21,925 nt of DNA, from IMG/VR virus record IMGVR_UViG_3300030450_003326, positions 1 through 21,925 of that record. One strand, written 5' to 3'. Below the pieces are notes generated by a model, which made no database searches, was not told the DNA's origin, and worked only from the letters and a program-made list of their open reading frames with translations. The DNA comes from a virus. The number at the start of each line of letters is the position of its first letter. Within the stretch, counting starts at the first letter, position 1. Below, in pieces: positions 10,974 through 21,925 of this stretch. The translations under genes and the position numbers were made by a program.

Positions 10974-13352
10974 ATGCCAGTACAAATATTGGGATTAAGA
11001 CAGTACGAGGATGCCGGCGGTCGCAGGAAAACGAAAGAGGATTTCTTTGGTAACGAGTGGAGGGCACCATCTGTTGCTGAGTTGCTTGGTAACCATGAGC
11101 ATTACCTAGCGCAGGTCACACCGATGGAACGGGTCAACATATATTACACGGCGGCGGATTGCCTGGAAGAAAGAGGGCGGAAGCTTAAAAAGCAGTGGGT
11201 TATCCCGTTTGACATCGATGATATAGATGTATCAAGGACCGATGAGTATATAGATGTGGCGTTGGATGCGCTGGGATTAAGCTACGATACTACGGGTATC
11301 GTGATGTCAGGCCATGGCCTACAAATAATTGTAGGAATTACGGAAGCCATTACAGATAAGTCCTACTTTAAGGAGAGAAGGAAAGAGTATCGGAACCTAT
11401 GCGATAAAATAGATGAGGCCCTCGGTCGAGCGTCGTTGCCTGGCCATGCTGATCCATCGGTCTGGTCACCTGCCAGATTACTAAGGATGCCTGGCACAGC
11501 TAACGGTAAGCCGGACAAACCTTTTGTTGATGCGGTCCTGATCCAGGGGAACGTCGAGCCAATAAAGAATCCGTTGGAACCTATCGGGGACACGGGGGCA
11601 CCAACCAGGGAAGATGAGGAGAGCAAGCATACTATCGCTATGAATCCCAAGATGCTTGAACATTTAAAGATCGATGCGGAGGGGGTAAGAGAATGTGAAG
11701 TGTTCAAGTGGATGAAGGATGAACCTAACGAGGTAGCTGAACCTATTTGGTATGCATCCCTCAGTATTCTTGGAAGGGTTAGCAATGAGATTGCCCACGA
11801 GTACAGTCAAGGTTACTCCAACTATAACAGAGAAGAGACAGACGATAAGATTGCGCAAGCAATCGAAGCTTCGGGGCCAGTAACGTGTGAACATTTCAAT
11901 ACCCTTTGGGGTAAGTGTAACACCTGCCCTCACCAATATAAAGTTAAGAGTCCTATTAGTATTAAAGGACCAAACTTTATAAGGACTAAAGACATCGGGT
12001 TCAGAACCTTGAACCTCAAGAAAGATCCTCCGGTACAGGGTAAGCCAGACTACGACGACTTGTATCGGTTCTTCTACCAGCAACATCCTTATATATCCTT
12101 GGAAGAATACCGCGAGGTATATGCATGGGATGGTAAGCGTTGGATTAAATATGCGCAGTCAAAGATAAAAGAGTTCGCTGAAATCCACGTAGACTTTAAG
12201 CCCTTGGCGTGTGAGAGGACAGAATTTTTGGAGAAAGTTTTGGCCAACCACATGAGGCCGGAAACTTTCTTGAATCCGTATGGCTTTGCTAACTTTCCAA
12301 ACGGTACGATGAGGTTACCAGGTGCCAAGGTAACGGGGGAGATGGAAGAGATCCAAGAGATGGAGCCTTTCAAACTGTACCCACATCGTATGGATTTAGG
12401 TATGACATACATCTTACCCTTTGAGTACGACGCTAAGGCCACGTGCCCTCGGTTCGAGACGTTTATGGAAGAGGTAACGATGGGAGATAAGTCACTCATT
12501 GCAATCCTGCAAGAATTTATGGGGTATTCACTAAGCAACGCGGACGCTGAGTTGGGAGAGCGAGCGTTGTTCCTTTTGGGGGAAGGAAGTAACGGGAAGA
12601 GTGTGTTCTTGGATGTAATGAAATGGTTGGCCGGTAAGGAGAACTTCTCCTCGGTTCCCTTGTCTTCACTTGATAAGGAGACAGGGAGATTTGAACTGCA
12701 CGGGCGCATGTTTAATGTCACCGAAGAAACTCCTAGGCATGGGCTTAAAGACTCCAGTGTCTTTAAGAATCTAGTCACTGGTGGGACAATGACTATCAAG
12801 CAACTATACAAAAACATTGCGACTGTCAAGAACAACGCAAAATTTATCATGGCAGCAAACGAACTGCCACACAACACGGACACGACGAAAGGAATGTTTA
12901 GAAAGATCCTGATCGTGCCTTTCAATGCGACGTTCGAGGGCAAGAAGATCGATAGGAAGATAAGGCAGAAACTTAAGGATGAATTACCAGGCATATTTAA
13001 TTGGGCCATCGATGGGTACAACAGGCTGCAGACAAACGAGTATCACTTCACTACTTCATCGGCAGTAGAAAAGGAAGTACATCAATACGAATACCTATCG
13101 GACCCACTAAAAGTCTGGGCCAGAGATCACCTGGAGGACACGGATGAACGGGACTTCACACCCATGCGTGAGCTTTACATGGCATATGTAAATGAGATGG
13201 AGGTATCCAGGCAGAAAGCATCAACGCTTTCAGCGTTCGGCATACGATTGCGAAGGCTGTTTAAGTTTAAGAAGTACGAGAGAAGGATGGTGGATAACCG
13301 GAAGGCCACTTGTGTTTATGGATTAAAGCTAATTGGAAGGAGGGAGTTCTAA
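10974..13352 (+). CDS. Primase-helicase, P4/D5 family (AEP-like primase plus SF3 helicase)
   Basis: This 792-aa replication initiator/primase unwinds DNA and lays primers. The N-terminal archaeo-eukaryotic primase-like domain shows F-D-I-D-D-I-D with D80 and D82 as likely metal ligands, and SGHGLQ at 112-117. A middle zinc-binding stretch has C305-E-H ... C315-N-T-C318-P-H. The C-terminal SF3/D5-type helicase has Walker A GEGSNGKS at 536-543, a Walker B-like F-N-V-T-E584-E585 and motif C F-I-M-A-A-N629-E-L-P. AAGGAGGG lies three bases before the ATG. In phage P4 the equivalent protein also binds origin iterons; the candidate iterons lie at 8386-8646. The stop overlaps the next ATG as TAATG. 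Confidence 0.9.
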   Translation: MPVQILGLRQYEDAGGRRKTKEDFFGNEWRAPSVAELLGNHEHYLAQVTPMERVNIYYTAADCLEERGRKLKKQWVIPFDIDDIDVSRTDEYIDVALDALGLSYDTTGIVMSGHGLQIIVGITEAITDKSYFKERRKEYRNLCDKIDEALGRASLPGHADPSVWSPARLLRMPGTANGKPDKPFVDAVLIQGNVEPIKNPLEPIGDTGAPTREDEESKHTIAMNPKMLEHLKIDAEGVRECEVFKWMKDEPNEVAEPIWYASLSILGRVSNEIAHEYSQGYSNYNREETDDKIAQAIEASGPVTCEHFNTLWGKCNTCPHQYKVKSPISIKGPNFIRTKDIGFRTLNLKKDPPVQGKPDYDDLYRFFYQQHPYISLEEYREVYAWDGKRWIKYAQSKIKEFAEIHVDFKPLACERTEFLEKVLANHMRPETFLNPYGFANFPNGTMRLPGAKVTGEMEEIQEMEPFKLYPHRMDLGMTYILPFEYDAKATCPRFETFMEEVTMGDKSLIAILQEFMGYSLSNADAELGERALFLLGEGSNGKSVFLDVMKWLAGKENFSSVPLSSLDKETGRFELHGRMFNVTEETPRHGLKDSSVFKNLVTGGTMTIKQLYKNIATVKNNAKFIMAANELPHNTDTTKGMFRKILIVPFNATFEGKKIDRKIRQKLKDELPGIFNWAIDGYNRLQTNEYHFTTSSAVEKEVHQYEYLSDPLKVWARDHLEDTDERDFTPMRELYMAYVNEMEVSRQKASTLSAFGIRLRRLFKFKKYERRMVDNRKATCVYGLKLIGRREF

Positions 13353-14779
13353 TGGAATTTAAAATTGAACCTTTTGCACATCAAAAGGATGCGCTTAAGA
13401 GGAGCCAGAAGACCAAAGACATGGGCCTACTATGGGAGATGGGCACCGGCAAGACAGGAGGTGCGGTCCTGATACTTCGAGATAAGTTCGAGAGATACGG
13501 GGAGATCCAGAAGACAGTGATCTTTTCTCCAATCGTTACGCTTGAGAACTGGAGACAAGAGATAAAGATGCACTCATATATAAATGACTGCAACATTTAC
13601 GTATGCAATAGGGCAGGAAAGAAACGAGTCGATACCATAGCCGAGGCAACCAAGAAGAAATCAATCATCATCCTTAACTACGAGGCCATGCTTAATAAGA
13701 ATGTGAGGGAACTTCTAATTAAATGGGGGCCAGAGATTATGATATGTGATGAATCTCACCTGGTAAAGAACCATACTTCCAAGCGGAGCAAGTACGTGTG
13801 GGAACTATCCCGGGTAGAGAGCATAAAGCATAGATACATACTGACTGGGACTCCTATCCTTAACTCTCCGATAGACCTGTACCAACAGTACAAGATCCTT
13901 GACGGAGGCGAGACGTTCGGCAAAAACTTTTGGGCGTTCCGTGCGGAATATTTTTTCGATGAGAATGCGAAGTGGGTTGGGAAGCATAACTATTTCCCCA
14001 AGTTCGTACCTATTAAATCAAAGTTCCACGAGCTAACAAGTAAAGTCTATGCCAAGTCAACACGGATACTAAAGAAAGATTGCCTGGACTTACCTCCTTA
14101 TGTGGTTAAAACAATCCGTTTACCTATGGCACCGGACCAGTACCGAGCATATCGTGATATGAAAAAGGAGTTCATAACCTTTGTAGAAGATGCAAAGAAA
14201 GATAAGACACACGCAGCGGTAGCATTGCAAGCTACTACTAAAGCTATAAGACTCCAGCAAATTTGCTGCGGTTTTATAAAGACCGAGGATGGAGAGAACA
14301 TTCCTTTTAAATATAATCCTAAGCTCGACGTTACTAGGGATATTCTAGAACAGATTACACCTGATCATAAGGTGATAGTCTGGACTTCTTTCATTGCGAA
14401 CTATAAAATGCTTTCCGATATGTTAGAGAGCGCAGGAATTAATTATGTTTTACTCACCGGCCAACAATCCAATTCTCAAAAGGAGCAATCAATTGAAAGA
14501 TTCAGAAAAGAAAAAGACTGCAGAGTTATCATTGCAAATAGAAAAACTGGGGGAACAGGTGTCAACCTTACAGAAGCATCTTACTCGATTGTCTTCGGAA
14601 GGGATTTCAATCTCGCTAACGAGCTCCAATCAGAAGCCCGAAACTACAGAGCAGGATCAGAAGCTCACCGATCTATAACAAAAATAAATTTAGTGATGGA
14701 AGATTCTATTGATGAACTAATCATGACCGCTCTTGATAACAAACAAGAGATAAGCGAAGTCATATTGGATTTAAAATGA
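13352..14779 (+). CDS. SNF2-like superfamily 2 DNA helicase
   Basis: This 475-aa SF2 ATPase/translocase begins at ATG 13352 in a TAATG overlap with the primase stop, with AAGGAGGGAG upstream; an upstream in-frame ATG at 13310 is inside the primase gene. Residues 25-40 hold the Walker A M-G-T-G-K34-T. Motif Ia is V-I-F-S-P-I-V-T-L-E-N-W, motif II is D133-E-S-H, motif III L-T-G-T-P, and the C-terminal lobe has V-I-V-W-T-S-F, N-R-K-T-G-G-T-G-V-N-L and motif VI Q426-S-E-A-R-N-Y-R433. The pattern is SNF2-type rather than replicative. In phages such proteins sit beside primase and polymerase and may help replication, recombination or fork restart. Confidence 0.88.
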   Translation: MEFKIEPFAHQKDALKRSQKTKDMGLLWEMGTGKTGGAVLILRDKFERYGEIQKTVIFSPIVTLENWRQEIKMHSYINDCNIYVCNRAGKKRVDTIAEATKKKSIIILNYEAMLNKNVRELLIKWGPEIMICDESHLVKNHTSKRSKYVWELSRVESIKHRYILTGTPILNSPIDLYQQYKILDGGETFGKNFWAFRAEYFFDENAKWVGKHNYFPKFVPIKSKFHELTSKVYAKSTRILKKDCLDLPPYVVKTIRLPMAPDQYRAYRDMKKEFITFVEDAKKDKTHAAVALQATTKAIRLQQICCGFIKTEDGENIPFKYNPKLDVTRDILEQITPDHKVIVWTSFIANYKMLSDMLESAGINYVLLTGQQSNSQKEQSIERFRKEKDCRVIIANRKTGGTGVNLTEASYSIVFGRDFNLANELQSEARNYRAGSEAHRSITKINLVMEDSIDELIMTALDNKQEISEVILDLK

Positions 14780-15093
14780 AAACGTTTGGCGATAAGAAAA
14801 AGGAAGCTGAGTACCTTAAGAAAATATTATTAGAAGAAATCATTCTTGGTAAGCGTGGCAGGGTAAAGATTATCAGGCACCACGATGGCAGGTATGAAGT
14901 ACAAGAGGGGGTGTGGAAAGGAAGATTGTTTAGTCACGATGAGTACGAGCTATTAATTAAGGAGGGGTCTATTGACCCAGTTAATACGCATGAGTTGGAT
15001 GATCGCCCTCATAAGAGAGCGTTATTTTATAAACATTTTAACGACAAACTCCAAGAGTATGCACTCAAAGAGTATGTAAAAGGAAAGAAGTAA
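14776..15093 (+). CDS. Small hypothetical protein in the replication operon
   Basis: This 105-aa, Lys/Glu-rich protein starts in an ATGA overlap with the helicase gene and ends one base into the next start. After a helical N-terminus (A-E-Y-L-K-K-I-L-L-E-E-I-I-L-G-K) comes a compact R-V-K-I-I-R-H-H-D-G-R-Y-E-V-Q-E-G-V-W-K-G-R beta-like segment near residues 29-50. Tight coupling suggests a replication or recombination accessory. No family recognised. Confidence 0.65.
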   Translation: MKTFGDKKKEAEYLKKILLEEIILGKRGRVKIIRHHDGRYEVQEGVWKGRLFSHDEYELLIKEGSIDPVNTHELDDRPHKRALFYKHFNDKLQEYALKEYVKGKK

Positions 15094-15515
15094 TGGAGAT
15101 TACAGTCAAAGATTTAGATGGTCTATGCAGGGATGTAGTGAAGACACGAGAAGACTATGATGCGGCAAAGAAAACCAGCAATGAGTTCGATGCCATCCAT
15201 AAGAAAGCAAACAGAAAGTTAATGGATGCGCTGGATGCCTTGGGAAAAAAGTCTTATGTGGTTGATGGTCTGGCCTCTGTCTCTAAGGTACAGAAGCTTA
15301 AAGTTACTGTGCCTAAAGACCTGGACTCAAGGAAACAAATGATCGATTACTTCCTACGCCAGGGAGAAAATATAAGCAGCAAATATTTAACAGTAAACTC
15401 TATGAGTTTGAACTCTTGGTATTCTCAAGAAGCGGAGGACAACCCAGAGTTTCAGCTACCAGGAGTAGGGGAGCCAGAGTTAAGTGAGTACTTACAAATC
15501 AGAAAAAAGAAGTGA
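15093..15515 (+). CDS. Conserved-looking phage protein in the replication operon
   Basis: This 140-aa protein has a TAATG start and a helical N-terminal half with heptad-like spacing (K-T-R-E-D-Y-D-A-A-K-K-T-S-N-E-F). A V-D-G-L-A-S-V-S-K-V-Q-K-L-K-V-T-V-P-K-D segment (about 58-77) and an N-S-M-S-L-N-S-W-Y stretch follow, then P-G-V-G-E-P. Similar small proteins lie near ssDNA-binding or recombination genes in many phages, as far as I recall. No enzymatic motif is visible; function unknown. Confidence 0.65.
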   Translation: MEITVKDLDGLCRDVVKTREDYDAAKKTSNEFDAIHKKANRKLMDALDALGKKSYVVDGLASVSKVQKLKVTVPKDLDSRKQMIDYFLRQGENISSKYLTVNSMSLNSWYSQEAEDNPEFQLPGVGEPELSEYLQIRKKK

Positions 15516-15651
15516 AGAGTTAGAAGCCTGGATAGATGAGAATATAACTTGGATAAGTCTACTGTATGACTTACATAAACAGAACCAAAGGAACCAAGAT
15601 GTCGAAGAATCAGATGCAACAATTAAAAAATTCCCCCCAAACTGTAGTTAA
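15484..15651 (+). CDS. Possible 55-aa overlapping gene
   Basis: A frame starting with GTG 15484 runs 55 codons. It overlaps the previous gene by 32 bases and the chosen start of the next by 53 bases, filling the only gap here. The product begins MSTYKSEKRSEELEAWIDEN and is protein-like, but the ribosome binding site (GGGGAG about 12 bases upstream) is far and the downstream overlap is unusually long. It may be spurious. Confidence 0.25.
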   Translation: MSTYKSEKRSEELEAWIDENITWISLLYDLHKQNQRNQDVEESDATIKKFPPNCS

Positions 15652-16279
15652 AAACTGGGGGCAAAAGTTCAACGCCGCCAATATAATCATGCCAAAGATT
15701 ATATTGCAGCAAAAGATGTCCGAGCTAGTAGAAGATGGGAAGGCTAAGCCAGGTGACCTGGTAGATAATCTCACGGATGAAGTGTTGGCTCAGGTAGGTA
15801 AGCCACTAGAAATAATTCCTTTCCGAACGGAGACGGTATGGATGGAGAAACACAACGGGGATTTTGCAGGGGCCAAGCCATATGATGGGCAAGAGTTACC
15901 ATTCGAGGAGGAGAAAGACGGGGTCACAATAGTAAGAGACAAGGTTATGAATGTCTTTGTTCTGATACCAGGTATCACAGACGTTCCTTACATCATTCCT
16001 TTTAGGCGTACATCTTACAAAGCAGGTAGGAAGATAGAGACAAGGCTTTATCGTAATGTCCTTGGCGGTCTGAACCCGTGTGCTTTCGCTATGAATCTCA
16101 CGGCCAAGAAGGTAGATGGAAAGAAAGGAACTTACTTCGTAATAGATGCAGCGACAGGACGGAAGGCCAACAACGATGAGGCCATACTATGCTATCGCTT
16201 CAATGAGTCTGTCTTATCTGGTCAACGAAAGGTTGACTACTCAGAAGAGAAAGAAAAGAAACCACACCCACAATTCTAA
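15599..16279 (+). CDS. Possible phage ssDNA-binding/recombination accessory protein
   Basis: The 226-aa protein starts at ATG 15599, with AAGGA eight to twelve bases upstream; an in-frame ATG at 15566 lacks a site. It is beta-rich, with P-K-I-I-L-Q-Q-K-M-S-E-L-V near the start, then G-D-L-V-D-N, V-F-V-L-I-P-G-I near the middle and I-P-F-R-R-T-S-Y-K-A-G-R-K-I. The C-terminal tail is charged and ends in P-Q-F; many phage ssDNA-binding proteins end in an aromatic residue, although theirs are acidic. Its place between helicase and polymerase and the fold-like pattern suggest an ssDNA-binding role. This is inference; I cannot name the family. Confidence 0.55.
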   Translation: MSKNQMQQLKNSPQTVVKNWGQKFNAANIIMPKIILQQKMSELVEDGKAKPGDLVDNLTDEVLAQVGKPLEIIPFRTETVWMEKHNGDFAGAKPYDGQELPFEEEKDGVTIVRDKVMNVFVLIPGITDVPYIIPFRRTSYKAGRKIETRLYRNVLGGLNPCAFAMNLTAKKVDGKKGTYFVIDAATGRKANNDEAILCYRFNESVLSGQRKVDYSEEKEKKPHPQF

Positions 16280-16284
16280 ACCAT

Positions 16285-16303
16285 GGGGGCTTCGGCCCCC
16301 TTT
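16285..16303 (+). terminator. UUCG-loop hairpin terminator
   Basis: GGGGGC (16285-16290) and GCCCCC (16295-16300) close a TTCG loop, followed by TTTA. The short U-tract suggests partial termination before the genes for the small RHH-like protein and DNA polymerase. It is nearly the same hairpin as the leftward one at 783-798. Confidence 0.7.
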
Positions 16304-16318
16304 ACATAAGGAGTTATT

Positions 16319-16525
16319 ATGAGAGGAAAGGTTGTAAAGAAAGCAGTACCAAAGAAAGAAATTTTTTATTGTCGTGGCATTAGCCCTGGTATTAAGAAAT
16401 TTGTTGTTGACCGTGCCAAGGAAAGGGGTGTCTCTATATCCTATTACCTTGAGCATATCTTAAGCGCAATCAAGGTGCAGCATGATGCCAAGAAGAAAAA
16501 GAAGAAACTAACAACAAGGAAATAA
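16319..16525 (+). CDS. Small basic protein, possible ribbon-helix-helix type
   Basis: This 68-aa protein has AAGGAG before the ATG and lies between a terminator and the polymerase gene (one-base gap). Residues 15-50 read as a short strand I-F-Y-C-R-G-I, then S-P-G-I-K-K-F-V-V-D-R-A-K-E-R-G-V-S-I-S-Y-Y-L-E-H-I-L. That is the strand-helix-turn-helix arrangement of ribbon-helix-helix DNA-binding proteins. Both termini are very Lys-rich, which would help DNA contact. It may be a small regulator or a polymerase accessory; assignment is by pattern only. Confidence 0.55.
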   Translation: MRGKVVKKAVPKKEIFYCRGISPGIKKFVVDRAKERGVSISYYLEHILSAIKVQHDAKKKKKKLTTRK

Positions 16526-16526
16526 A

Positions 16527-18398
16527 ATGAGCATAGTGACCATCCAACAGTTTCATAGCAGGATTGACCAATTTAAACTAGATGGCCACTATGGTTTGGA
16601 TACCGAGACGTTCGGTATAGGTAGGCAGGATCGCTTGTACTCTATTATACTATCGAATGAGAAAACAAGCTACTACTTTAATTTTCTGAGTGAGCAGGAT
16701 CACTTAGGAAATGAACCGGCCATAGTGTTACCAAAAGAATTTATAAAAGAGTTTGAACCCGTCTTCAACAACGCCAATAGTACCTGGTATATTCACAACG
16801 CAAAGTTTGACATGGCTAAGCTGGGCATGGAGGGACTCAAGATCAAGGGCACGGTACATTGTACCCAAGCATTGGCCCGACTTGTAAAGAATAATCACTT
16901 GAGTTATTCACTCGATGCATGTGTAAAAAGAATCTATGGCTACAACATAGGTAAGCTTTCACTTGATGAGTATATAACTAAGCACAAGTTACATGAAACG
17001 GTAGAGATACCAGGCAAGCAGAAGAGACAGAAGAATAAATTTTACCATAAGGTTCCTTTTGATATCATGGCAGACTATGGCATTAGGGATGGCCGTGTTG
17101 TTCAAGCCTTAGGTGAATACCAAGAGCGCAAGTTAACCGAGACAGGAATAAATAAACGACTGATTCAGACTGAAAGAAACCTAACCAAGGTATGCTTCGA
17201 CATCGAACAACGTGGTATTAAATTAGATATGCAGTATGTTCGAAAAGGGATGGCCGACCAAGAGGAGAAGCTAGTGCAGGCCAAGGAAGATTTCCAACAG
17301 CTTACAGGTATCGAATATAAACGGGGGCCAACGTGCCTGGTGGAAGCCTTCACAGCACAAGGCATACCCATTCGTCGAACAGCCAAAGGACGCCCCTCCT
17401 TCTCAAAGGATGCGCTACTCGATAGTGACTATCCTATTGTCCACATCTTAAAAAGGATTCGAAGTCATGAGAAAATTATTGATACTTATTATTCTAGTTT
17501 CCTCCATCTATCTGATCCTCGTGGTATCATACGGGCGAACATCTTCCAGTCTGGAACTGAGACGGGGAGATTTTCCTACTCTTCCCCAAACCTACAGAAC
17601 TTGCCAAAAGAAGATAACGTAAAGAAAGATTACTATGTACGTAAATGTTTTGTGCCTAGGAAAGATCATTGCTTTGTCATGATTGACTATGATCAACAAG
17701 AGTACCGCCTAATGTTGGACTATGCGGGGGAGTTCAAACTCATAGATAGGATCAACCAAGGCCTGGACGTACACCAAGCGACAGCGGATCTCTTGAACTC
17801 TGCCAGTAGGTATAGCGATGTTACCAGGAAGACAGCGAAGATGATTAACTTTATGCTCCTGTATGGTGGGGGCACAGAAACACTGGCCAAACAACTGGAT
17901 GTTACTTTGGATAAGGCCAAGGAACTAAGACGCCTTTACTTCGAGAGCCTTCCTCGTGTTACGGATTTCTTTCGGCGCGTGGTTAGTACCGCCAAATCTC
18001 GTGGGTGGATTCAGAACTGGGCAGGTCGCAAGTGTTACCTGTCTTCACTCAAAGGGGCGTACATCATGCCCAATCATTTAATCCAGGGTGGATGTGCTGA
18101 CATTATCAAGTCGGCCATGACTAAAATCCACAAGCTTCTCAAGGGTAAGAAGTCATCGATGTTAGTCCAGATACATGACGAGCTTCTACTGGAAATGCAT
18201 GAGTCTGAACTAAGCCTGGTCCCTCGGATCAAACAAATCATGGAAGATGTGTACACGCCAAAGAATGGGCTGAAGTTAACATGCGGAGTGGAACACTCAT
18301 GGGTTAGCTTCGCCTCCATCGACAAGATCAAAGGGTTACCCTGTGGCCAAGAAACCAGAGACAGTTTTCAAAGAGAGATTCCAACGCAAGTTGGATAA
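16527..18398 (+). CDS. polA: Family A DNA polymerase with 3'-5' exonuclease
   Basis: This 623-aa replicative polymerase has the full proofreading site: Exo I D25-T-E27, Exo II H-N-A-K-F-D95 and Exo III Y184-G-I-R-D188. The polymerase domain has G-T-E-T-G-R-F-S-x-x-x-P-N-L-Q-N-L-P, motif A D387-Y-D-Q-Q-E-Y-R394, motif B R434-x3-K438-x3-F442-x3-Y446-G and motif C H550-D551-E552. No 5' nuclease domain precedes it, as in T7-type enzymes. F442 is at the position of E. coli Pol I Phe762. About 20 residues extend past the usual family end, in the part that overlaps the nuclease gene. AAGGAA precedes the ATG. Confidence 0.95.
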   Translation: MSIVTIQQFHSRIDQFKLDGHYGLDTETFGIGRQDRLYSIILSNEKTSYYFNFLSEQDHLGNEPAIVLPKEFIKEFEPVFNNANSTWYIHNAKFDMAKLGMEGLKIKGTVHCTQALARLVKNNHLSYSLDACVKRIYGYNIGKLSLDEYITKHKLHETVEIPGKQKRQKNKFYHKVPFDIMADYGIRDGRVVQALGEYQERKLTETGINKRLIQTERNLTKVCFDIEQRGIKLDMQYVRKGMADQEEKLVQAKEDFQQLTGIEYKRGPTCLVEAFTAQGIPIRRTAKGRPSFSKDALLDSDYPIVHILKRIRSHEKIIDTYYSSFLHLSDPRGIIRANIFQSGTETGRFSYSSPNLQNLPKEDNVKKDYYVRKCFVPRKDHCFVMIDYDQQEYRLMLDYAGEFKLIDRINQGLDVHQATADLLNSASRYSDVTRKTAKMINFMLLYGGGTETLAKQLDVTLDKAKELRRLYFESLPRVTDFFRRVVSTAKSRGWIQNWAGRKCYLSSLKGAYIMPNHLIQGGCADIIKSAMTKIHKLLKGKKSSMLVQIHDELLLEMHESELSLVPRIKQIMEDVYTPKNGLKLTCGVEHSWVSFASIDKIKGLPCGQETRDSFQREIPTQVG

Positions 18399-18651
18399 GA
18401 TCCCAAATTCTTGGTGGTTAAAAACTCAACTCATTTCAACCGTTGGCATACCTGATATCATTGGGTGTGTCGGCGGCACCTTCGTTGCACTCGAATTAAA
18501 AAGAGATATGAAAGAAGCCAATAGAAGGCACAGCCTTCAACGCCACATCCTTAAGGTAATCAAGGATGCAGGAGGCTTTGCCTCTTTCACCTACCCAGAG
18601 AACTCCGAAGAAATCCTAGCGAAAATTCGCTCCTTACATTCTTCTTCCTAG
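18343..18651 (+). CDS. VRR-NUC-like PD-(D/E)XK nuclease
   Basis: This 102-aa protein fits the small VRR-NUC / Holliday-junction-resolvase-like nuclease type. Catalytic residues are G35-I-P-D38 and E51-L-K53, with Q66-R-H following, which together form the PD-(D/E)XK site and its trailing Gln. Enzymes of this group cut branched DNA and in phages may resolve replication or recombination intermediates before packaging. The GTG start at 18343 lies 56 bases inside the polymerase gene, with only a weak AAGGG upstream. It is the last rightward gene, and its end overlaps the convergent leftward gene by 18 bases. Confidence 0.75.
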   Translation: MAKKPETVFKERFQRKLDKIPNSWWLKTQLISTVGIPDIIGCVGGTFVALELKRDMKEANRRHSLQRHILKVIKDAGGFASFTYPENSEEILAKIRSLHSSS

Positions 18652-18855
18652 ATCCAGTATATTAAACCCAGCATTTCTAAACCTATCAAATGTTTCCTTA
18701 TCTGATAGATCCTCCACTATCAATTTTGTCTCCTTACATTTTTTCCAAAGTAGGGAGCGCGAGCAATACCTGTAGCATAATTTACCTACGTTATCTTCAA
18801 GTTCCCTGGGGTCACAGAATCTATAAGTTCTTTTCTTGAAGTCACGCGGAGCCAA
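18634..18855 (-). CDS. Small Cys-containing hypothetical protein
   Basis: A 73-aa product results from the TTG at 18855, which overlaps the preceding leftward gene by 14 bases. The frame stays open upstream to an ATG at 18975, but that part lies inside the other gene and reads like a shadow. The body has F-C-D-P-R-E-L-E-D-N-V-G-K-L-C-Y-R-Y-C and a further K-K-C, so metal binding is possible. It ends in N-I-L-D-L-G. The stop lies inside the 3' end of the convergent nuclease gene. No family recognised and the start is uncertain. Confidence 0.45.
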   Translation of the reverse strand: MAPRDFKKRTYRFCDPRELEDNVGKLCYRYCSRSLLWKKCKETKLIVEDLSDKETFDRFRNAGFNILDLGRRM

Positions 18856-19069
18856 TTTCTTCGCGAAAATTGTCGAGGAGCAAGACCAACCTATCACGCA
18901 GATCATCGATAACTGAATCAAACCTAAGATGCGGCGGACGATTAAGCTCTCTAACAAGATCCCGATGTACCTCATAAAACCTCCGCTTATACTTTCCTTC
19001 CATATGTTTCATGTGTACTTGCATAAGAGTATTGACTAGCTCCACACTAGATGTAGCTAACTGAATCAT
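18842..19069 (-). CDS. Small hypothetical helical protein, lysis region
   Basis: This 75-aa protein starts in an ATGA overlap with the preceding gene. It is helical and amphipathic throughout (S-S-V-E-L-V-N-T-L-M-Q-V-H-M-K-H-M near the start, D-S-V-I-D-D-L-R-D-R-L-V-L-L-L-D-N-F near the end) and has no membrane segment. It lies downstream of the endolysin in the same operon. No family recognised. Confidence 0.6.
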   Translation of the reverse strand: MIQLATSSVELVNTLMQVHMKHMEGKYKRRFYEVHRDLVRELNRPPHLRFDSVIDDLRDRLVLLLDNFREEIGSA

Positions 19070-19248
19070 GGTTGTCTATCTGGCAAGAGTCTATCTACTA
19101 GGTTATCAACCATAGTAATGGCAAGATCATCGAAGTGATTCTCAGTAACAGAAACAATCTCATCCTGTAGTGCTGACCGGATTCCTTTGAACCAAAGCTT
19201 TCTTCCGAAAGCATGCCAATCAATCTTGTCTTTAAGTGGTTGACTCAT
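19066..19248 (-). CDS. Small hypothetical protein downstream of endolysin
   Basis: The 60-aa product starts at ATG 19248 because AAGGAGAGGTAC lies directly upstream; the longer in-frame ATG at 19308 lies inside the endolysin gene without such a site. It begins MSQPLKDKIDWHAFGRKLWF and continues with helical stretches ending in V-D-R-L-L-P-D. It overlaps the endolysin end by 17 bases and the next gene by four. No membrane helix is visible. Function unknown. Confidence 0.65.
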   Translation of the reverse strand: MSQPLKDKIDWHAFGRKLWFKGIRSALQDEIVSVTENHFDDLAITMVDNLVDRLLPDRQP

Positions 19249-19639
19249 GTACCTCTCCTTGTAGGTTTGACTTACGTCTTTGGCATTGCATGTGAAAATG
19301 TAAAGCACTTCCCTTTACCTTATGATAGACTATGGGCCTACGTTCACCTGCTTTATTATATGCACCCTGTTTATTAAATCGTTCCTTAAATTTAAACATA
19401 AAAGAATGTATATGGAAATCATTCCAGCCTCTCACTGAAATGTCTACGGCCCTGCCATCTTTATGTGTGGATGTTTTTCTACCAGGTGCATCCTCTCTCA
19501 TCGAAGTAATCACACAAGGTATGCCATAGTCATGGGCATATGCCGCAGTGAAGCTGATCATCTCAAGGATAGTAGGATCTAAATAAAAGAGATCTCTTTC
19601 ATCTAGCCCTGGTTTCAATGTAAAATATGTTTCCCCCAT
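19232..19639 (-). CDS. Probable endolysin, M15-like zinc peptidase
   Basis: The 135-aa protein carries the zinc-site pattern of M15 / D-Ala-D-Ala carboxypeptidase-like enzymes: H59-K-D-G-R-A-V-D66 (H-x6-D) and L-H114-F-H116, with an I-T-S-M-R-E-D-A-P block before the first histidine. Such phage enzymes cut peptide crosslinks of peptidoglycan at lysis. It is short, so it is a single catalytic domain without a cell-wall-binding module, and no signal peptide is seen, so a holin should be needed for release. GGAGG lies about seven bases before the ATG. It follows a membrane/coiled-coil gene, a common lysis cassette order. Confidence 0.78.
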   Translation of the reverse strand: MGETYFTLKPGLDERDLFYLDPTILEMISFTAAYAHDYGIPCVITSMREDAPGRKTSTHKDGRAVDISVRGWNDFHIHSFMFKFKERFNKQGAYNKAGERRPIVYHKVKGSALHFHMQCQRRKSNLQGEVHESTT

Positions 19640-19872
19640 ACCTTGGCCTCCAGCTCTTTGATTCTTTCTTCCATGCTTTTGAATCTATCCGCGTGTCCTT
19701 GGTTATCATTGATTAGGACTGCCAGTTTCTTATCAAGTTCTGTTATGGTGTAGCCAAGACGGTTGATCTTTGAGAGTAATTGGCGAATGAAGAAGGCGAT
19801 GATTGATAGCATCCCCCCACCTAGTGCAACGGCTCCTGCAATTGCCACATCGAAAGTTGCCTGACCATCCAT
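19615..19872 (-). CDS. Single-membrane-helix coiled-coil protein, holin or spanin candidate
   Basis: The 85-aa protein has one clear membrane segment at about residues 9-29 (V-A-I-A-G-A-V-A-L-G-G-G-M-L-S-I-I-A-F-F-I). A helix with heptad spacing follows (I-T-E-L-D-K-K-L-A-V-L near 43-53 and M-E-E-R-I-K-E-L-E-A-K-V near 67-78). A membrane anchor plus coiled coil directly upstream of an endolysin is typical of inner-membrane spanins and of some holins; I cannot choose between them. It shares the AAGGAGTAACC leader with the 19883-20221 gene and overlaps the endolysin start by 25 bases. Confidence 0.65.
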   Translation of the reverse strand: MDGQATFDVAIAGAVALGGGMLSIIAFFIRQLLSKINRLGYTITELDKKLAVLINDNQGHADRFKSMEERIKELEAKVWGKHILH

Positions 19873-19882
19873 GGTTACTCCT

Positions 19883-20221
19883 TTATTGCCTACTTTTTGG
19901 CCCGTGTTTTCTTTTATGCTCTTTTGATAGACCCCACCCTACATAATCACCTCCTCTTAATTCAAGTGGAGTACCTGCTTGGGGGGTAGTTCTGTTTTTA
20001 TTTATCTCCATCCATCTTTCAATTTCTTCCGCAGATAATTTTTTAGGCGCATCTTTATGTTTTGGATTCTTTAGCCAAGGCATACTAGACTCTGTTTCTT
20101 TTTTCATTTCTTTTTTCAACGCTGCTTCTGCTTTGTACTCAGAAGCATCGGCAACAGAATCTATTTTCTTTTTCTTTGGCAACGTCCTTAAGACACGCTT
20201 CAATGCTTTGCCTGCTCCCAT
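19883..20221 (-). CDS. Basic protein sharing an N-terminal motif with its neighbour
   Basis: This 112-aa, Lys-rich protein starts MGAGKALKRVLRTLPKKKK. The next gene upstream starts MPAGKLLMSILKKLPKSRT, so both share M-x-A-G-K-x-L-x3-L-x2-L-P-K. The rest is charged and probably mostly disordered, with K-K-L-S-A-E-E-I-E-R-W-M-E-I-N-K-N-R near residues 60-77. AAGGAGTAACC precedes the ATG. Its place between fibre-region and lysis genes suggests a virion or late role; the family is unknown to me. Confidence 0.6.
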   Translation of the reverse strand: MGAGKALKRVLRTLPKKKKIDSVADASEYKAEAALKKEMKKETESSMPWLKNPKHKDAPKKLSAEEIERWMEINKNRTTPQAGTPLELRGGDYVGWGLSKEHKRKHGPKSRQ

Positions 20222-20223
20222 GG

Positions 20224-20709
20224 TTACTCCTTCTTTTTCTTTCTCGACTTCTTAAATTCTTCATGTGCGGAATTTATATCTGACCGAATCTTATCCATAG
20301 CTTTATTAAACTCTGAAAGTCCTTTCTCCCCTTCCTCATGTAAATCTTTCGTTGCGTTTTTCAATGCTGCGATAGATTCTTCGAGCTTTTTCTTGCGCTC
20401 TTGCTCAAGCTTTTTCCTTTCTTCAGGAGACATAGCTCGTCGAGCATCTCTTTTTTCGGTACGCCTTTTTTTGTCTTCGCGCACTTTACTAGCACGATCC
20501 TCTATAGGCCTGGGATCTCCTGGTTTAAGTGCCTGTTTTTTTCGTCGCTCTTGTACTTTGATACTTGCGCCGCTGGGACTAGACCCTCTGCCATAATCAT
20601 CAAGATCCTTTTGAATCCGTCGAAGTTTTTCTTTGGCCTTCAAGACTCCAGATGTCCTACTCTTTGGAAGCTTCTTCAATATACTCATCAATAATTTACC
20701 TGCTGGCAT
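20224..20709 (-). CDS. Charged coiled-coil protein with shared N-terminal motif
   Basis: The 161-aa protein is unusually rich in Lys, Arg and Glu. After the shared M-x-A-G-K-x-L-x3-L-x2-L-P-K start comes a long helical region with S-P-E-E-R-K-K-L-E-Q-E-R-K-K-K-L-E-E-S near residues 93-111, very likely a coiled coil, and a Lys-rich tail. The N-terminal amphipathic segment could bind a membrane or another protein. The gene starts three bases past the 39-aa membrane gene and ends three bases before the 19883-20221 gene. Function unknown. Confidence 0.6.
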   Translation of the reverse strand: MPAGKLLMSILKKLPKSRTSGVLKAKEKLRRIQKDLDDYGRGSSPSGASIKVQERRKKQALKPGDPRPIEDRASKVREDKKRRTEKRDARRAMSPEERKKLEQERKKKLEESIAALKNATKDLHEEGEKGLSEFNKAMDKIRSDINSAHEEFKKSRKKKKE

Positions 20710-20711
20710 GG

Positions 20712-20831
20712 CTACCTCACAACGTCAATGGGACTTGCCCCTATTGGTGTATAGATACTAATAATCGTACATAGAAAGAATGCAATCACCATGTACGCGA
20801 TAACTATGTAATCTTCTTTATCGTTTTTCAT
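20712..20831 (-). CDS. 39-aa single-pass membrane protein
   Basis: The ATG at 20831 forms an ATGA overlap with the stop of the preceding gene, and the TAG ends two bases before the next ATG, so the frame fits its gap exactly. The protein has a charged start (MKNDKEDY), one membrane segment (about residues 9-27: I-V-I-A-Y-M-V-I-A-F-F-L-C-T-I-I-S-I) and a short tail. The acidic N-terminus and tail R39 do not fix its orientation. It could be a small holin, antiholin or spanin partner in this late/lysis region, but nothing in the sequence proves that. Confidence 0.65.
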   Translation of the reverse strand: MKNDKEDYIVIAYMVIAFFLCTIISIYTPIGASPIDVVR

Positions 20832-21328
20832 TTGGGAAACTTATCCTTGATAGCTTTCCGCAAGCGTAGGTACTCGTCCATCTTGCCAGCTTTGTTCTCT
20901 TGCTTCTCTGCTATAGCTTCCAAGAGTAGCTCATCAATCTTACGGTATTCATTACGACGATCGAGCATAGGACGTTCACGTTCTGCCTTGTCGTCCATTT
21001 CTTTCTTGGCAGCCTCAAGCTTCAGAACTTTTTGTTCGAAGTCATCCAAGTTATCGCGGTCCCACTCGGCTATCTCTTCTTGGTAGTAGATTCCGATTGG
21101 TTCTCCTCGGACTTCTTTTGATCTCACTCCAAACGCTTTAACGTAGTAAACATTATTAGCTATTAAAGGACTAAATCTTTTTTCCAAATCAGCCTTTCTT
21201 TTTCTTTTAGCAATCTCGGCTAACTCTTCAGGTGTGAAAGGAACAACTTGTTTAAGTTCCCAATCCCATCGGTGGGTATCAGAATTAAATTCTGGTATTT
21301 CACTTTCAAGTTCTTTTACTTTTCCCAT
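20828..21328 (-). CDS. Helical charged protein, possible tail-fibre assembly chaperone
   Basis: This 166-aa protein follows the fibre-like gene directly; its AGGAATAGCA ribosome binding site overlaps that gene's TAG. It is mostly helical with coiled-coil spacing, has W-D-W-E-L-K-Q-V-V-P-F-T-P-E-E-L-A-E near residues 22-39 and ends Y-L-R-L-R-K-A-I-K-D-K-F-P-K. The F/V-x-F-T-P-E-E start and R-x-x-I-K-x-x-x-P-K end resemble what is seen in some tail-fibre assembly proteins, and position after a fibre gene fits. This is an inference; a minor structural role is equally possible. Confidence 0.5.
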   Translation of the reverse strand: MGKVKELESEIPEFNSDTHRWDWELKQVVPFTPEELAEIAKRKRKADLEKRFSPLIANNVYYVKAFGVRSKEVRGEPIGIYYQEEIAEWDRDNLDDFEQKVLKLEAAKKEMDDKAERERPMLDRRNEYRKIDELLLEAIAEKQENKAGKMDEYLRLRKAIKDKFPK

Positions 21329-21336
21329 TGCTATTC

Positions 21337-21925
21337 CTATTTAAGTTTTTCAATCATTACAGTAGAGTAGACCTCAACTAGTCCGGAAATATTTGTGGCG
21401 TTCCCCAAATTTGAAGTAGATGAAGAGGCCAACGATGGTGTTCGGTATTCAAGTCGCCATTGCCGTTCAGAGGCCGTGCCCGAAGTGACATAAATAATCG
21501 CCTCTACATGCGTATTGTTAGTTCCTGCGGCATCGTTAAAATAATAGCTACCGCCCAAATGCGACTCATTTGCCCCGCCTGTTTGATAGATACGTATCCG
21601 TGTATTTCCAGTTCTATAAAAAGGGGCATGTGCCCTGATACGATACATACCTTTTGCAAGTTGAAAAACGGAACTGCTTAAACTTTCTAAAAACCACGAC
21701 TCCCCATCGATTGTGTTCAATGTTCTTGTTGTCCAAGCCCCTGTTGCTGCTGTTCCACCGACTGTATTCTGGGCTTGCACATCTGTTAACTTGCAAACCG
21801 CGGGCTTGATGACTGCGGCCGTAGGTTGAGGTGGTTGTCTGTAGTCGGAGCCTTGTCGGGTAGCGACCACAGTAAAATTATTATCCTCTTGCGAGCCTCC
21901 ATCAGTACACGTTACTATAACGCTG
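21337..21925 (-). CDS. Fibre- or appendage-like structural protein, C-terminal part (partial)
   Basis: The frame stays open to the right edge, so the visible 195 codons are only the C-terminal part; a GTG at 21870 is internal rather than a real start. After a Pro/Gln linker (Q-P-P-Q-P-T-A) lies a beta-rich domain of about 150 residues with G-M-Y-R-I-R-A-H-A-P-F-Y near its middle and a final V-E-V-Y-S-T-V-M-I-E-K-L-K. This arrangement is like the C1q/TNF-type jelly-roll ends of many phage fibre and collar proteins, where a C-terminal trimer binds the host. Placement before a possible chaperone and the lysis genes supports a receptor-binding role. Confidence 0.6.
   Translation of the reverse strand, partial: SVIVTCTDGGSQEDNNFTVVATRQGSDYRQPPQPTAAVIKPAVCKLTDVQAQNTVGGTAATGAWTTRTLNTIDGESWFLESLSSSVFQLAKGMYRIRAHAPFYRTGNTRIRIYQTGGANESHLGGSYYFNDAAGTNNTHVEAIIYVTSGTASERQWRLEYRTPSLASSSTSNLGNATNISGLVEVYSTVMIEKLK

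Follow-up and report, generated by a model that had tools for sequence, protein, structure and literature searches.

Two adjacent, strongly basic proteins of an uncultured phage begin with the same short segment and then continue into bodies without significant likeness. The shared start can be seen in both protein and DNA and, judged from its letters, was probably copied between genes by local duplication or recombination, with unlike basic bodies behind it. Our best overall explanation, to which we give a probability of roughly 0.38, is that the two are real basic accessory proteins whose copied start would act as an address to the membrane or to a membrane partner. An earlier note on this DNA had pointed to the pair and suggested that a short N-terminal targeting or docking peptide had been duplicated; the coordinates, the minus strand and the protein starts that it gave agree with the open reading frames. 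Throughout, the window is the whole stretch of DNA that was analysed, a single virus record of 21925 bases that represents a partial genome of an uncultured virus of bacteria.

The locus and its genes

The two genes, here called K161 and K112, are placed between the tail-fibre-side genes and the putative lysis genes (table 1). The intergenic gaps measure 2 bp on each side of K161 and 10 bp ahead of the 85-aa gene, gene starts carry Shine-Dalgarno-like sites (GAGG in the start context of K161), and the G+C content of K161 and K112 by codon position resembles that of six other measured genes. For these reasons, both look like real genes.

Table 1. Features of the window and of the records compared with it.
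Feature	Record	Positions	Strand	Properties
K161	window	20224..20709	-	ORF for a 161-aa basic protein (32 K, 18 R, computed pI 10.2); single-sequence model mostly helical, mean pLDDT 76.5, pTM 0.27, helices 3-13, 20-40, 69-91 and 95-160
K112	window	19883..20221	-	ORF for a 112-aa basic protein (21 K, 7 R, computed pI 10.0); single-sequence model of low confidence, mean pLDDT 59.2, pTM 0.20, helix 4-12
Shared segment of K161	window	20662..20709	-	first 16 codons, MPAGKLLMSILKKLPK
Shared segment of K112	window	20174..20221	-	first 16 codons, MGAGKALKRVLRTLPK
39-aa protein	window	20712..20831	-	single hydrophobic stretch (by eye); present in L013 and L043, no match in L003
166-aa protein	window	20828..21328	-	upstream of the 39-aa gene; 81% identity to the L003 and L013 versions
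Tail-fibre C-terminal part	window	21337..21870	-	phrog_24210, E 1.9e-11; near the end of the window
85-aa protein	window	19615..19872	-	hydrophobic N-terminal stretch (by eye), then weak coiled-coil family matches
M15-type peptidase, 135 aa	window	19232..19639	-	PF08291, E 0.0011, 19.6 bits; phrog_894 endolysin, E 0.0023
Exact 15-bp direct repeat, copy 1	window	20218..20232	-	ribosome-binding site and start codon of K112
Exact 15-bp direct repeat, copy 2	window	19869..19883	-	start of the 85-aa gene
Poly-lysine ORF	L003	13418-13525		33-37 residues across the three records
Poly-lysine ORF	L013	5620-5724
Poly-lysine ORF	L043	186-299
NNNSxS gene	HTVC010P (L015)	21074-21679
NNNSxS gene	HTVC010P (L015)	21709-22335
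NNNSxS gene	HTVC100P (L014)	10977-11504

Among the neighbours, the 166-aa protein has phrog_9114 as its nearest family (E 0.012 only). The 85-aa protein matches a profile of unknown function (phrog_1009, E 5.3e-5) and may be holin- or spanin-like, by position only. The PF08291 match of the 135-aa peptidase lies below the Pfam cut-off of 23.2 bits, and the protein is a putative endolysin by its sequence matches.

Further along the window, the minus-strand genes at 18634-18975 and 18842-19069 overlap in different frames. The product of the former begins like a lipoprotein (SCSS), contains the conserved segments RTYRxC and KLCYRYC, was aligned in three uncultured relatives described below (L002, L003 and L013) and found in a fourth (L043), and gave no match in family searches; it looks like an outer-membrane lipoprotein, o-spanin-like by position. 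An 80-aa ORF at 19066-19308 is listed from GTG, and its true start is probably the in-frame ATG at 19248 (MSQPLKDK), directly behind AAGGAGAGG. Across the whole window there was no Rfam match at gathering scores.

Like starts on unlike bodies

The shared N-terminal motif described in the earlier note is real. In a BLASTP alignment of the two starts, 9 of 16 residues are identical, the initial Met included (20 bits; the E value of 0.007 refers to that single comparison). The starts are also alike in DNA, with 39 of 57 coding bases identical. The DNA likeness claimed before thus stands within the coding bases, and the start contexts had been read correctly (GAGGTAGCC-ATG and GGAGTAACC-ATG); upstream of the ATG the likeness is partly ordinary, the gene at 19615-19872 having the same GGAGTAACC-ATG.

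In register, and for a motif picked post hoc, after it had been seen, residues 2-16 agree at 8 of 15 positions and the DNA at 36 of 54 bases, each the top value among 1127 near-neighbour pairs (next best 6 residues and 30 bases). Each pair consists of same-strand genes that are immediate or next-but-one neighbours, drawn from 726 simple gene calls (ATG starts, at least 50 residues) in 30 sources, some of them overlapping. In 200000 trials with the first 29 residues of both proteins shuffled, 8 identities arose 10 times and the observed BLOSUM62 score never. When all 246753 pairs of distinct N-termini are compared, 8 identities are reached by 113, of which 111 have similar bodies too (local score at least 60); the two pairs with unlike bodies are K161/K112 and one fibre-region gene pair of two Pelagibacter phages. 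This likeness beyond chance in protein and DNA, together with its rarity on unlike bodies, supports the proposed copying of a short N-terminus.

The signal is confined to the start, since an unanchored local alignment of the whole proteins gives a score that 422 of 2000 shuffles also reach, which is not significant. The complete divergence that had been claimed for the remainder is likewise borne out: the body scores are reached by 186 of 2000 shuffles in local and 1110 of 2000 in global alignment. K161 and K112 were also considered as whole-gene duplicates, an idea that we reject because the bodies lack significant likeness. A match to DAxxx[LM]S[AP]EE can be spotted by eye in both bodies and is put in register by the global alignment, the body tests being negative.

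The likeness extends from the ribosome-binding region to about codon 19-20, beyond which it fades. Of the 8 residues shared after the Met, 5 are encoded by the same codon against 2.4 expected (P about 0.05, borderline), which mildly favours common descent of the DNA. The two copies of the 15-bp repeat are spaced 349 bp, about one K112 gene. On its own the repeat proves little, because ribosome-binding sites are under selection to be alike; taken with a likeness that runs from the ribosome-binding region to codon 19-20, it would fit an exchange or duplication of gene starts.

The gene pair and its slot in other genomes

As far as we searched, K161 and K112 are seen in this phage only and appear to occupy a slot of variable content that directly precedes the putative lysis genes. 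Scans of viral contigs returned 39 pattern stretches for K161 and 25 for K112, none of them confirmed. Neither protein was found by tblastn against 50,697 phage records (E up to 1) or against the loci compared here (E 0.01 and 0.05), K161 had no match in four contig records, and 24-residue N-terminal queries, which are short and thus weak tests, found nothing at E up to 10. Of the surroundings, positions 15000-21925 gave no blastn match to phages, the M15 peptidase alone gave 6 stretches in viral contigs with none confirmed, and the 166-aa protein and the M15 peptidase had no match in phage records at E up to 0.01. Against Pfam, PHROGs, NCBIfam and PDB sequences, K161 gave weak matches only, none credible (NCBIfam ZorA, E 0.013, 14.5 bits against a cut-off of 500; Pfam DUF2884, E 0.03; one PDB chain, E 0.091; a tape measure profile, E 0.73), and K112 gave nothing below E 0.08.

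The motif itself was sought at the DNA level as M-x-A-G-K-x-h-x3-h-x2-h-P-K, where h is L, I, V, M or F, in scans that may exclude the record of K161 and K112. Viral contigs contain 12 such stretches, two pairs among them identical in sequence; nine give fewer than 50 residues before the next stop, and in the others (L033, L038 and L039) the frame is open for 151, 277 and 119 codons upstream. With a stricter pattern (h = L or F), 9 stretches were found in bacterial and archaeal genome contigs, 6 of them giving fewer than 50 residues; in the remainder (L050, L051 and L053) the open frame extends 83, 47 and 68 codons upstream. The search for the motif at gene starts elsewhere that the earlier note had proposed produced no convincing start among these 12 viral and 9 bacterial or archaeal stretches. 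A narrow search of the literature for a shared N-terminus, docking peptide or amphipathic helix of this kind found none, which does not imply absence from print.

Closer uncultured relatives (L002, L003, L013 and L043) were found with the polymerase, the 166-aa protein and the lipoprotein-like protein as queries. The slot is covered in L003, L013 and L043; the L002 contig stops short of it. The order in these three is 166-aa gene (L043 covers just its end), 39-aa gene (L013 and L043), a poly-lysine ORF, 85-aa gene and M15 peptidase, and something strongly basic is encoded by the slot in all four phages where it is covered. The poly-lysine peptides resemble one another (their scores are reached in 0, 0 and 1 of 3000 shuffles), show no similarity to K161 or K112 in 12 comparisons (26-87% of 3000 shuffles reach the score) and do not have the AGK..L...L..LPK start. 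The start context of K161 resembles that of the poly-lysine ORF in L043 (TGAGGTAGCCATGCCA vs TGAGGTGACCATGCCA). That K161 or K112 is an extended poly-lysine peptide would fit position and start context but not protein similarity, and we do not claim it. In L003 and L043, the end of the poly-lysine ORF holds the purine-rich start context of the next gene. The L003 phage has portal and capsid proteins 76% identical to those of the window, yet it is without K161 and K112. In the distant polymerase relatives (L020, L022 and L024-L029) no lysis-side gene was matched, so the slot cannot be located there.

A possible role for the start segment

The start segment looks like a cationic amphipathic helix, in keeping with the short amphipathic N-terminus proposed earlier. 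The hydrophobic moment of residues 3-14 is 0.63 in K161 and 0.90 in K112 (values as high occur in 0.7% of 5000 and in 0 of 5000 shuffles, respectively), and both single-sequence models place a short helix at the start (table 1), with modest confidence. There is also a borderline tendency for conserved positions to share one side of the helix, 73 of 1716 and 83 of 1287 permutations being as extreme. A cationic amphipathic N-terminal helix, as expected of a membrane-binding segment, is predicted at that modest model confidence. Anionic membrane surfaces are common binding sites for N-terminal helices of this kind.

We favour, tentatively and at less than even odds, the reading that the start segment is a membrane or membrane-partner address by the lysis proteins. 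The segment would fold into a short cationic amphipathic helix and associate with the cytoplasmic membrane at its inner face, or with a membrane partner, for which the 39-aa and 85-aa proteins are candidates; in this way the two basic proteins would be brought to the site of lysis preparation. In the relatives, the poly-lysine peptide of the slot would fill this role in a simpler form, an equivalence that is positional only because there is neither sequence similarity nor a shared motif start. A peripheral membrane address is favoured by the amphipathic helix, the neighbour with a hydrophobic start, the putative endolysin and a suggestion, made in PMC6811365, that an M15 peptidase may serve for lysis in HTVC010P-related phages without a lysozyme. 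The synteny of the slot in L003, L013 and L043 speaks for the best overall explanation. Against the address, the motif shows no independent sign of selection, because the searches returned no homologue of K161 or K112; the neighbours have putative lysis roles only, and both models are single-sequence ones, that of K112 being poor.

Somewhat less plausible is a functionless peptide: duplication or recombination at the start site would have supplied K112 (or K161) with a ribosome-binding site and first codons, and the bodies would act, for example, in nucleic acid binding. The exact 15-bp repeat, a likeness that begins in the ribosome-binding region, the resemblance of the K161 start context to that of the poly-lysine ORF of L043 and the strongly basic bodies all agree with such a leftover. 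However, the residues that were kept are largely those of the helix face together with AGK and LPK, with 7 of 15 positions changed, and a pure leftover would be expected to change evenly; the helix-face test is itself only borderline.

Docking to the virion is a serious alternative, although we give it less weight still. The shared N-terminus would anchor both basic proteins, different as they are, to head or tail, as short N-terminal docking segments of fibre or internal proteins do, and it is true that K161 and K112 come after the tail-fibre side of the late region, that NNNSxS starts occur on different bodies in likely structural genes of the same phage group (HTVC010P and HTVC100P), and that the only other pair in our sample with similar starts but dissimilar bodies comes from fibre-region genes. 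Yet K161 and K112 lie beyond the fibre and 166-aa genes, towards the lysis side, there is no credible match to a virion family (the best is the tape measure profile for K161), and the L003 phage, with its similar portal and capsid, does without both proteins, which are therefore not essential virion parts. Rather unlikely in our judgement is the broader proposal that the 16 residues are a portable address tag which recombination at ribosome-binding sites has moved about, and with which a phage lineage brings different basic proteins to one site (the membrane where lysis is prepared, or the virion), the slot of sister lineages holding a bare poly-lysine peptide. Convergence or chance between two lysine-rich proteins is improbable: the post hoc choice of motif, the unanchored alignment and the 14 of 7260 pairs of lysine/arginine-rich N-termini (n=121) that reach 8 identities lean towards it, but the top rank among near neighbours, the rarity in shuffles, the similar bodies of the other matching pairs bar one and the shared codons (borderline) tell against it.

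The observation is solid but narrow, concerning two orphan proteins in one partial genome. If the shared start does serve as an address, the pair would be a small and testable case in which a phage has passed a targeting peptide from gene to gene.

Comparison with known systems

The phage has HTVC010P-like head genes, and its portal and capsid place it near Pelagibacter phage HTVC010P and allies. Whole records of five cultured phages were compared (HTVC010P, HTVC100P, HTVC028P, Lederberg EXVC029P and Baldr EXVC032P), and in 5/5 the portal is 40-50% and the capsid 51-56% identical over the aligned parts. The structural module of an HTVC010P-like podovirus is present, with portal, scaffold and capsid matched in all five by tblastn; the 193-762 protein (tail tubular A in isolates) also matched all five and the terminase four, Baldr being the exception. 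The replication genes, by contrast, are not those of an HTVC010P-like genome: the polymerase, primase and helicase of 10974-18398 had no match in the five isolates (L014-L018) at E 0.05. Other uncultured contigs carry genes similar to them (polymerase in L020, L022 and L024-L029, helicase in seven of these). Going by these matches, the genome is a mosaic of head genes and replication genes with different affinities.

An M15 peptidase is annotated near fibre-side genes in four of the five cultured phages. K161, K112 and the full motif were not found in the five whole records, where four loosely similar starts misfit the motif.

The poly-lysine ORF of L003, L013 and L043 differs from K161 and K112 in being one ORF of 33-37 residues, as opposed to two, and has no sequence similarity to them. 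It is like them in position, between the 166-aa/39-aa genes and the 85-aa gene, in its strong basicity and, in L043, in its start context. The fibre-region NNNSxS genes of HTVC010P and HTVC100P differ in their motif, in encoding larger proteins (175-208 residues) and in having, by eye, no cationic amphipathic start. Like K161 and K112, however, they carry a common N-terminal segment on unlike bodies: two of them adjoin in HTVC010P, and one cross-phage pair passes 8 identities although the bodies behind it are unlike.
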